From [Flavobacterium] thermophilum (GTDB lineage Bacteria > Bacillota > Bacilli > Bacillales > Anoxybacillaceae), in NCBI GenBank assembly GCA_900450595.1, contig UGGS01000001.1:1984001-2048000 (forward strand): a stretch of 64,000 nucleotides of DNA. The letters are read 5' to 3'. Each line of letters opens with the position of its first letter. Within the stretch, counting starts at the first letter, position 1. The position numbers and the translations under genes are program-made. A model generated the notes under the pieces. That model ran no database searches and was not told the DNA's origin. It saw only the letters and a list, made by a program, of their open reading frames with translations. Shown piece by piece: positions 6,061 to 64,000 of this stretch.

Positions 6061-6220
6061 CTTCGTTCCGGCTGAAGCCGTCAGTTCTGTTTGAGATGAA
6101 GGCGTTCCCGGTCGAAGCCGTCATGCCTGTTTGACATGGGCGTGTTCCCGGTCGAAGCTGCCACGTCTGCTTGACATGGCGGCGTTTCCGGTCGAAGCCC
6201 GCATCGCCATTTGGCACGGG
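6061..6220. repeat. Four tandem imperfect 40-bp repeats
   Basis: Units lie at 6061-6100, 6101-6140, 6141-6180 and 6181-6220, exactly 40 bases each. All share a core like GTTCCCGGTCGAAGC followed by TTTGACATGG. A fifth, degenerate unit may follow to 6260. Because 40 is not a multiple of three, the array does not encode a repeated peptide. It lies between ytwF and its terminator, so it would be part of the ytwF 3' untranslated region. Confidence 0.85.
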
Positions 6221-9279: not shown

Positions 9280-9535
9280 ATATGTACAAAAAAACCCCTC
9301 ATCCCGAACAAAAGGGACGAGAGGAACGCTTCCCGCGGTACCACCCTTTTTGGCGCGCCGGCGCGCACCCGCTTTTTTCCTTAACGCAGACTCACGGCCG
9401 GCGTTATCGGTCGCAGCCGTTCACGCCGGCAACTCCGAGGCGAGTTCGCGGATTGACTTCGGTTGACTCGCACCGGCCGTCAACTCTCTGCCGTCCGTCA
9501 AGCCCGCTACTATTCCTCTTCACCGTTGTTCGCAT
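9280..9535 (-). promoter_or_regulatory. T-box riboswitch controlling leuS
   Basis: The leader begins with the typical GAAGAGGAATAGTA-like stem I start at about 9530. The conserved T-box AAGGGTGGTACCGCG lies at 9334-9348. A GC-rich terminator at 9287-9324 ends in seven T residues, about 50 bases before leuS. A CTC triplet in the GAACTCGC context (9443-9445, minus strand) is the likely leucine specifier codon. Uncharged tRNA-Leu would stabilise the antiterminator. Confidence 0.95.
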
Positions 9536-15773: not shown

Positions 15774-15949
15774 ATAAAAAACCTTTCCTGTAACGGCTGA
15801 GGAAAGGTCATGGCAATCGTATTGCTTCCTTTCACTCTTATCGTTCAAGGACTGCGCCTTGCCACAGGTTAGCACCATTTCACACATGTCCAGTTGTGAC
15901 GGTTGCTGGGCTTCATCGGGCCTGTCCCTCCACCGGCTCGGGATAAGAG
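15774..15949 (-). promoter_or_regulatory. SAM-I (S-box) riboswitch of metK
   Basis: P1 pairs CTCTTATC (about 15942-15949) with its complement at 15835-15842. Between them are the S-box core elements GAGGGA, GCCCGATGAAGCCCAGCAACC, and the pseudoknot loops. A terminator with an AAAGGTTTTTT 3' arm follows at 15774-15810. SAM binding would favour termination. Confidence 0.96.
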
Positions 15950-19920: not shown

Positions 19921-20277
19921 TTACTTCTTCAGCTGTTCAATCTTTTCCGCCGGCAGCCCGGTCAGCTCGTGGACCGTGTCGACATCGTACCCTTTCGCCA
20001 ACATTTTCTTCGCGATGTCGATTTTCCCTTCCTCGATCCCTTTTTGACGTCCCTGTTCAATCCCTTGCTTCATCCCTTGCTTTATTCCTTGTTTCAACCC
20101 TTGTTCGATTCCTTGTTTGACTCCTTGTTGAATGCCTTTCTCGATTCCCCGCTGTTCGTATGAGATGATGAGCTCCATCACTTGTTTCGCTTCCTTCGTC
20201 TCCATTTGGCTCACCTCGTCCCCGAACTTTTTCATCCGTTTCGCTGTTACGGCCGGAATCGGGGCAAGCGGCCTAGT
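19921..20277 (-). pseudogene. C-terminal remnant of an Rpn-family (PD-(D/E)XK nuclease) protein
   Basis: The readable part (KKFGDEVSQMETKEAKQVME, then a run of roughly 4-residue KQGI/EQG repeats, ending KGYDVDTVHELTGLPAEKIEQLKK) is the characteristic C-terminus of Rpn / transposase_31 proteins. The nuclease domain, which should precede it, is missing: upstream sequence is the terminator of ytmB. No start with a ribosome site is present, so I treat it as a fragment. Confidence 0.75.
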
Positions 20278-63254: not shown

Positions 63255-63330
63255 TGGTGCCGACTGCAGGACTTGAACCCGCAACCTACTGATTACGATT
63301 CAGTTGCTCTACCAATTGAGCTAAGTCGGC
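63255..63330 (-). tRNA. tRNA-Thr (CGT)
   Basis: Acceptor GCCGACT/AGTCGGC, loop ATCGTAA, encoded CCA. Its 5' half (acceptor strand and D arm) is duplicated twice just upstream. Confidence 0.96.
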
Positions 63331-63625
63331 ATAAAACAAATGCAAGAAGGTGGCTCATTGTTGTGCTCTGTGCCTCTTCCTCTACAAGCTGATTCGAGGA
63401 AGCAGGATGCGTCGAGGCAACTCGAAGCCGACTCGACGAAGCAAGTGCTCGTCTCTACCAATTGAGCTAAGTCGGCATAATTATGATATAAATCGCGGCT
63501 CATTGTTCATTTGTTGTGTCCCTTCCTCTACCAGCCAACTCGAAGAAGCTGGATGCGTCGGGACAACTCGCAGCCGATTCGATGAAGTGGATGCTCGTCT
63601 CTACCAATTGAGCTAAGTTGGCATA
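63331..63625 (-). repeat. Two tandem 146-bp units made of a tRNA-Thr 5' half and a structured spacer
   Basis: The first 24 bases of tRNA-Thr recur at 63453-63476 (exact) and 63599-63622 (one change). The real 5' end and each copy are 146 bases apart (63330, 63476, 63622). Each copy is followed, in transcription direction, by a related hairpin-rich spacer (63369-63451 and 63515-63597). Confidence 0.85.
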
Positions 63626-63648
63626 CATATGATGCACATTATGTTATA

Positions 63649-63724
63649 TGGTGGCTCGGGACGGAATCGAACCGCCGACACAAGGATTTTCAGTCCTTTG
63701 CTCTACCGACTGAGCTACCGAGCC
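63649..63724 (-). tRNA. tRNA-Phe (GAA)
   Basis: Acceptor GGCTCGG/CCGAGCC, loop CTGAAAA, encoded CCA. Confidence 0.97.
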
Positions 63725-63758
63725 GTATTAGGTTTTATGCTGTTTGCTTGTCCTGCAT

Positions 63759-63829
63759 TGTGCCTCTTCCTCTTCGAGCTAATTCGAAGATATGCTGGAT
63801 GCGTCGAGGCAACTCGCCTCTGCCGAGTA
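63759..63829 (-). repeat. Third copy of the structured spacer, without a tRNA half
   Basis: Between tRNA-Asp and tRNA-Phe. It matches the other two copies over TGTGCCTCTTCCTCT and GGATGCGTCGAGGCAACTCG, but has no tRNA-Thr segment. Confidence 0.8.
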
Positions 63830-63868
63830 GGCTGCCAAGCCATCATGATTTTCCTAATTTTTGAACAA

Positions 63869-63947: not shown

Positions 63948-64000
<53 letters not shown>

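Follow-up and report, generated by a model that had tools for sequence, protein, structure and literature searches.

Structured repeats beside tRNA genes in Bacillales stable-RNA operons: possible insertion into tRNA 5′ parts and spread by recombination

Few parts of a genome are as conserved as its stable-RNA operons, which are usually regarded as fixed. In E. coli, the tandem tyrT operon repeats (RtT RNA, Rfam entry RF00391) contain the 3′ end of a single tRNA and occur at a single locus. REP/BIME sequences and non-autonomous elements derived from IS200/IS605 are short, palindromic, and present in many copies, with a short preferred sequence before the insertion. Some integrative elements use tRNA genes as attachment sites via the 3′ part. 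The tRNA-derived SINEs of eukaryotes join a tRNA 5′ head to an unrelated body, in a setting unlike that of bacteria, which have no polymerase III promoter logic. One published account describes a tyrT operon repeat structure in which a helix frames a tandem GA (PMC8250186).

We analyzed a window of 64,000 nucleotides, by which we mean the whole stretch of DNA under study, containing a tRNA operon on the minus strand that extends past the window end at 64000. Three copies of one element lie in this operon, one in the gap between tRNA-Asp and tRNA-Phe and two in the gap between tRNA-Phe and tRNA-Thr(CGT); all coordinates in this paragraph refer to the minus strand. The initial annotation had described the latter two as tandem 146-bp units, each headed by the 5′ part of tRNA-Thr, and both observations are correct: the period is 146 (TRF score of 400), and tRNA-Thr nt 1-24 stand at 63599..63622 with a single mismatch, located in the acceptor strand, and without mismatch at 63453..63476. 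A full unit of 146 bp is composed of these 24 nt, a core of ~83 nt, and a tail of 40 nt. The first full copy of the core (core I), at 63517..63598, has the closing stem TGTCCC/GGGACA and is followed by a tail at 63477..63516 that starts with CAAC like tRNA-Thr after nt 24. The second full copy at 63371..63452, with the closing stem TGCCTC/GAGGCA, is the best match to our covariance model R1 in the genome to which the window belongs (the source genome), and its tail at 63331..63370 reaches the intact tRNA-Thr(CGT) at 63255..63330 (ARAGORN, Rfam), from which the 5′ part repeated in both units derives. The spacer hairpin had been reported to occur three times, and the third copy is indeed present as a truncated core at 63761..63817, which has lost its 5′ half but keeps its second half, including the closing stem TGCCTC/GAGGCA. 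It is preceded by a decayed tRNA-Phe 5′ part at 63818..63841 (GGCTTGGCAGCCTACTCGGCAGAG), a half that had been overlooked and that we positioned from the better preserved Phe halves at loci L065, L245, and L247. A tail at 63725..63760, starting with CAA like tRNA-Phe after nt 24, connects the truncated core to the intact tRNA-Phe(GAA) at 63649..63724 (ARAGORN, Rfam). Since the truncated core lies behind a decayed tRNA-Phe part, every unit carries a tRNA part that belongs to the next tRNA.

Among known systems, the structured tyrT operon repeat of E. coli comes nearest. Like RtT, the element is a tandem structured repeat linked to a part of a tRNA gene within a tRNA operon. Unlike RtT, it involves the 5′ part, tRNAs of ten amino acids, and many loci in a whole order. 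A cmscan of the window and of seven regions of the source genome, six with tRNA clusters and a complete 23S gene and one (L066) with tRNAs and partial rRNA matches, gave no match to RtT RNA. In the window and further regions, cores I and II (core II is described below) did not reach the gathering score of any family in the whole Rfam 15 library; the rRNA-spacer cores were covered by the scan of the seven regions alone. Window matches at E ≤ 10 lay far under the cut-offs, for example CC2171 with 21.4 bits of 75 and YrlA with 17.5 of 69, and the window units had no match to the tRNA model (RF00005) either at gathering score or at E ≤ 10. The Bacillaceae-1 RNA motif, considered as a lead, was dropped because neither an Rfam match on the window or the seven regions nor anything pertinent in the literature was found. 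Likewise, boxA-like antitermination sites in TTCTTTGAA were dropped because the CTTT part is not kept across copies, as judged by eye, and the presumed resemblance of GUAGAGGAA to RNase P CR-I was judged to be chance. We found no description of the family in the openly accessible literature; an earlier account outside it, for example under Geobacillus rRNA spacers, is possible. These are apparently small structured elements of a so far undescribed family.

Profile and covariance-model searches revealed that the repeat family is tied to tRNA genes in other genomes as well. The unit as a query gave 40 matches in the source genome at E ≤ 10, some weak or to the tRNA part alone, and 39 of 41 genomes had a unit match at E ≤ 1, some distant ones again to the tRNA part alone. 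Given these matches, the units are not the chance tandem duplication that the initial annotation had considered as its own refutation. The ~83-nt core has 35 copies in the source genome. Model R1 was built from 29 of 34 own-genome copies, five odd or duplicate copies being omitted, and it detected the core in all 14 genomes of the genus, with 3-35 copies each (E ≤ 1e-5). At least 73 of 150 genomes of the order and 45 of 83 genera, about half of the sample, contain the core at E ≤ 0.001. In the phylum sample the model found it in at least one of 199 genomes, namely the source genome; these are lower bounds, as at most 28 and 21 candidates per genome were scored in the order and the phylum, respectively. 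The 77 of 150 order genomes with no core match at E ≤ 0.001 are correspondingly an upper bound on absence. The units are thus not confined to this strain, and the family extends beyond Geobacillus and Parageobacillus. Among the matches listed for an 18-base core pattern are Geobacillus, Parageobacillus, Anoxybacillus, Aeribacillus, Cytobacillus, Neobacillus, Peribacillus, Halalkalibacter, Halalkalibacterium, Shouchella, Evansella, and Bacillus, and the few in, for example, Streptomyces and Nitrospira look like chance. We rejected a phage or plasmid origin: 50,697 phage records gave no match at E ≤ 1e-5, and 3 of 72,556 plasmid records (two Anoxybacillus, one Geobacillus) had a core match. The 18-base pattern is also contained in 13 viral contigs, of which the core hits alone entered the later counts. 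IMG/VR contigs L216, L219, L221, and L228 contain the core pattern, and in L216 and L219 the cores stand ahead of tRNA-Phe; these two are perhaps prophage flanks within tRNA operons.

We examined the relation between core and tRNA with a profile from the own-genome copies, which gave 297 distinct copies at E ≤ 1e-5 after identical copies were dropped and loci L001-L030 and L229-L242 were excluded as overlapping repeats of others. A tRNA lies downstream on the same strand in 265 copies, always within 900 nt, and the other 32 have no tRNA in the fetched stretch. When later loci were included, 360 of 392 distinct copies were within 400 nt of a tRNA, all on the strand of the tRNA, with 22 lacking a tRNA in the stretch and 10 located further than 400 nt away. 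The 5′ part of the next tRNA precedes the core in 219 of the 265 copies (at least 11 of 14 nt); for the other isotypes in these stretches, 69 of 2310 comparisons attain that score. In 201 of 228 copies the next tRNA was strictly the best isotype; 37 copies had no other isotype present. Many of the 46 failing copies have visibly decayed halves, and some of their cores come directly after another core. The tRNAs involved belong to ten amino acids: Gly(TCC) 67, Lys 39, Thr 33, Met 26, Asn 23, Phe 12, Arg(TCT) 8, Asp 6, Val 3, and Ala 2. The tRNA part is ~0.97 identical to its tRNA and identity falls upstream of +1, a pattern seen even where the spacers differ and affected by the preselection of units for a match to the first 12 nt of the tRNA. 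Selection on the tRNA halves proper is not proven by this value, as the left spacer and the tail need never have been homologous. The halves often track their own tRNA at variable sites (Asn nt 16 in 22/22, Phe nt 7 in 12/12), more weakly in Lys (nt 16, 34/39) and Arg (nt 16, 5/8).

A clear half is present in 213 units, and the triplet ahead of the junction base is AGC in 144 of them, AGA in 35, AGT in 29, and another in 5; one of the three triplets plus one base therefore stands ahead of the core in 208 units, and the core starts with ACGAGC in 191. A strict AGCN site rule was not upheld, as AGC occurs in these 144 units and in none of the 29 Thr units. The core usually follows a fixed tRNA position: nt 31 for Gly (64/66), 14 for Met (22/26), 17 for Asn (20/22), 24 for Thr (29/29), and 17 for Asp (6/6). 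The position is less fixed for Lys (17 in 25 and 24-26 in 14 of 39) and Arg (17 in 4, 27 in 4), and scattered for Phe. On the 3′ side of the core the same tRNA resumes, usually for 1-4 nt. We compared these right flanks in 202 of the 213 units (5 were dropped because the core end was unclear and 6 as duplicate or short), and the match to the same tRNA was 0.90, 0.80, 0.66, and 0.43 at +1 to +4 before falling to background (mean of 11 tRNA types), compared with 0.25, 0.19, 0.16, and 0.20 for the sequences of other types. Over the first four bases, 458 of 808 positions matched versus 236 ± 42 (maximum 350) with the types permuted, and outside the genus the match was 0.92, 0.52, 0.45, and 0.39. 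Gly, the largest class (63/202 units), matches at +1 only (0.95, then 0.06 and 0.11), and Met and Asn match at just 0.45-0.72 in the first three bases. The bases before and after the core correlate (z = 14.8), which would be expected if the tRNA supplied both. Insertion into a copy of a tRNA gene would leave junctions of this kind, although the Gly units fit less clearly.

With slightly more confidence than doubt, we read the family as a structured repeat of Bacillales stable-RNA operons whose copies insert into tRNA 5′ parts, recombination between these parts being the main route of spread. The ~83-nt core (ACGAGC at its start, the stem TGYCYC...GRGRCA at its end) would enter a copy of a tRNA gene behind AGC, AGA, or AGT plus one base. 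As a result, tRNA nt 1 to k would be followed in turn by the core, in most cases another 1-4 nt of the tRNA, a tail of ~30-50 nt, and the whole tRNA. Because the whole tRNA is found again after the unit, the tRNA would stay functional. The repeated 5′ parts would then serve homologous or slipped recombination, by which arrays could expand, contract, and move within a tRNA type, and the core would occasionally, though rarely, enter a new site. The core stem would be maintained by selection on the strand carrying the tRNA sequence and might serve the spread of the element itself. Nested copies accord with insertion: in L049 a single tRNA-Phe half holds two cores, each at an AGC site of its own, L132 and L140 each have two cores in one tRNA-Gly half, and in L154, L211, L083, and L092 a core I lies in the D loop of a tRNA-Arg half, which runs on as GGATAGAGCA into core II.

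This arrangement resembles several mobile elements in part. Like REP/BIME and IS200/IS605-derived elements, the family is short, palindromic, and multicopy, with a short preferred sequence before the core; unlike them, its cores are nearly always in tRNA genes, on one strand, and the tRNA 5′ part is repeated. A Y1 transposase (PF01797) match was found in 11 of 14 genus genomes; G004, G005, and G012 had none at E ≤ 1e-8 yet contain 17, 17, and 30 cores, and such an enzyme is therefore at least not needed to keep the copies. As with tRNA-targeting integrative elements, the tRNA stays whole and a part of it is present twice, once on each side of the unit, except that here the 5′ part instead of the 3′ part is repeated. 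No integrase gene lies on the window units, which at 146 bp are too short for a recombinase gene. The fusion of a tRNA 5′ head to an unrelated body recalls tRNA-derived SINEs, from which the family differs in that the head matches the neighboring tRNA at each site rather than traveling with the body.

Comparison of the source genome with eight relatives in the genus showed that the tRNA order at the compared sites is constant and the number of cores is variable. As profile matches at E ≤ 0.001, by which badly decayed copies are missed, 0-3 cores were counted at Val>Met, Phe>Thr(TGT), and Ser>Thr(TGT), 0-2 at Asp>Phe, Ile>Asn, Phe>Thr(CGT), and Ser(CGA)>Thr (the last including G003), 1-3 at His>Gly, and 1-6 at Thr>Lys. 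At Ser(TGA)>Thr(TGT), the unit-free 20-nt spacer of G008 (L247) agrees at every position with the left flank of the source-genome unit (L065), and G011 and G013 share this flank with at most one difference. The states with and without the unit differ by core, tail, and extra tRNA 5′ part, and the tRNA is whole in both. Insertion into such unit-free sites is one reading of these states; deletion between direct repeats would explain them equally. In G004, two tRNA-Thr(TGT) genes whose left flanks differ carry a near-identical two-core array (183/185 nt), suggesting that sequence is exchanged among tRNA genes of the same type. G002 has a unit with a Gly half ahead of tRNA-Asn. The nearest core was of the same tRNA type in 97 of 109 genus cores (22.8 ± 5.0 when shuffled); jumps between tRNA types are therefore rare, and most of the history looks vertical. 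Across 201 arrays flanked by tRNAs on either side, and leaving out copies that lack a core start, the tRNA part was perfect in 23 of 53 leftmost units compared with 55 of 72 inner ones (p = 0.0003) and in 75 of 131 single units, as expected if the outermost units are the oldest and the inner ones are renewed.

Related cores also occur beyond this arrangement. Core II was recognized in 27 pieces (loci including L055, L059, L154, L205, L189, and L211), marked by CGATCGA... and a closing stem near CRYACCNNYC, mostly behind AGC of tRNA 5′ parts. The source genome contains three tandem cores with tRNA-Arg-like 5′ parts at L061:4835-5205 (C1:1176834-1177204) with no tRNA within 10 kb, and Geobacillus zalihae (L105) has a similar orphan copy. 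In Evansella, the core stands mostly behind AGC, AGT, or AGG inside a dispersed repeat, in stretches without tRNA genes. Such dispersed-repeat cores (GGCGACTCCAGC or the like, then the core) were noted on Evansella and similar contigs lacking tRNA genes, at L106, L108, L110, L124, L133, L136, L156, L161, L193, L215, and others of this kind. The 16S-23S spacers of four operons of the source genome contain related, mostly tandem core-like hairpins on the plus strand, antisense to the rRNA on the minus strand (L061:19317-19485, L063:10554-10715, L064:4521-4811, and L065:13375-13459). The rRNA-spacer query matched 14 of 25 genomes at E ≤ 0.01, with some matches falling on tRNA-operon cores, and G008 had up to 22 partly overlapping matches. 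Among 24 loci examined, the spacer cores were antisense in all 11 at which the 16S end could be placed. An exact complement was present in 20 of 24 distinct spacer hairpins (CGTC/GACG 10, CGCC/GGCG 4, TGCC/GGCA 4, CATC/GATG 2), a weak test in which four bases were sought anywhere within a 31-base stretch. Tentatively, and at well under even confidence, we would extend the insertion reading to a hitherto undescribed class of gene-less mobile elements specialized on the tRNA and rRNA operons of the order. They would enter behind AGN plus one base via a structured single strand of RNA or DNA, leave the tRNA whole by resupplying its 5′ part, and comprise at least three related cores, namely core I in tRNA 5′ parts, core II in such parts too, behind AGC, and core III antisense in the 16S-23S spacer.

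The closing stem of the core covaries strongly. The double change between GCCTC/GAGGC and GTCCC/GGGAC, on which the initial annotation had based its suggestion of selection on RNA structure, is real and recurs over 338 aligned cores, and the additional compensatory changes it had called for are present: the closing-stem pairs covary with z = 26, 18, and 16 (338 distinct cores, effective number 83), and one more covarying pair able to base-pair has z = 8.7 in the same cores. The stem occurs as CCTC/GAGG, TCCC/GGGA, TCTC/GAGA, CCCC/GGGG, CTTC/GAAG, TTTC/GAAA, TTCC/GGAA, and CTCC/GGAG. The 38 distinct stems of core I contain 25 G.U, 8 A.C, and 6 other unpaired cells, and this G.U excess leans towards a structure on the tRNA-sense strand, either RNA or that DNA strand. 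Core II also covaries strongly: in its stem, 143 of 153 cells are Watson-Crick versus 97.3 ± 5.2 in shuffles, with no G.U excess (3 G.U vs 3 A.C). The inner stem of core I shows no two-sided change among the own-genome copies. In single-sequence folds, the whole window units had z-scores of 0.25 and -0.58 and the truncated copy -2.24.

Insertion is thus favored by the range of the family, the match of the tRNA parts, strand, junctions, nested cores, unit-free sites, copy-number change, the less often perfect leftmost tRNA parts, non-tRNA sites, and covariation. Against it stand the poor right flanks of Gly, Met, and Asn, the loose site rule, the negative result for a mobility enzyme (three of 14 genus genomes have no Y1 match at E ≤ 1e-8 and still hold many cores), the same-tRNA lineages, the unit-free sites explicable by deletion, and the order genomes without a match. 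Retention of sequence and structure across the order would fit a host function too. A host cis-acting RNA, which we consider unlikely although it is the most serious alternative, would be transcribed in the tRNA precursor, where the core would bind a factor or nuclease that sets the processing, pausing, or stability of the next tRNA, the 5′ part being retained because it participates. Such a role would account for the tRNA strand in 360/360 copies near a tRNA, the covariation with the G.U excess in core I, the tRNA-type-specific lineages (97/109), and the tracking of variable sites by the halves. However, identity of the halves can also be obtained by recombination, and a host RNA is hard to reconcile with 0-3 or 1-6 cores at one site between related species, the decay of leftmost halves, the patchy presence across the order, the antisense copies in the rRNA spacer (11/11 placed loci of 24) and those far from tRNA genes, and the absence of a G.U excess in core II. 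In either case, stable-RNA operons here hold up to 35 structured elements per genome, each dividing a copied tRNA 5′ half at a short preferred site. If the element moves, it would be a guest of tRNA genes without genes of its own; if it has a function, it would add a new layer to tRNA-operon RNA. Sister species with none, one, or many units per site make the question of mobility versus function testable.

Passive tandem duplication of operon segments, with neither mobility of nor selection on the core, would readily produce period-146 arrays and concerted change, for which ordinary homologous recombination suffices within one tRNA type. We nevertheless regard it as improbable, as the same core occurs behind AGN at different places in tRNAs of ten amino acids, the next bases of the tRNA resume after the core in most types, the stem covaries at z 16-26, and cores are nested.

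The initial annotation had also proposed a 50-nt tRNA-like fold without a T arm, closed by the acceptor stem. It stands for one window unit and fails for the family. In the unit adjoining tRNA-Thr, AGTCGGC is found at nt 44-50, and the 50-nt fold has -18.6 kcal/mol (z -2.10, with 9 of 200 shuffles as good) and is also part of the minimum-energy fold of the 146-nt stretch; the 50 nt of the other window unit do not fold in this way (z 1.18). Full 7-bp acceptor complementarity, G.U allowed, was found in 23 of 213 units (0.108, versus 0.032 with the strands of other tRNAs): 14 Gly, 5 of 12 Phe, 3 Thr(CGT), and 1 of 22 Asn. There was none in Lys (39), Met (26), Thr-TGT (13), Arg (8), Asp (6), Val (3), or Ala (2) units, and this absence from most tRNA types rules out the fold as a general feature. 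Despite the fold of the one unit and the excess in Gly and Phe, a discrete 50-nt RNA acting as a putative RNase P/Z decoy is very improbable in view of the tRNA types without the complement, the second window unit, which does not fold so, and the lack of a tRNA-model match. In Gly(TCC) units the full acceptor complement lies 37-62 nt downstream in 14 of 66, compared with a control of 0.006. Elsewhere in the window, Rfam identified a T-box leader at 9310-9532 and a SAM riboswitch at 15835-15949, both on the minus strand; 40-bp tandem repeats lie at 6074-6199, and tandem repeats with units of 12/24/36 bp at 20025-20148.
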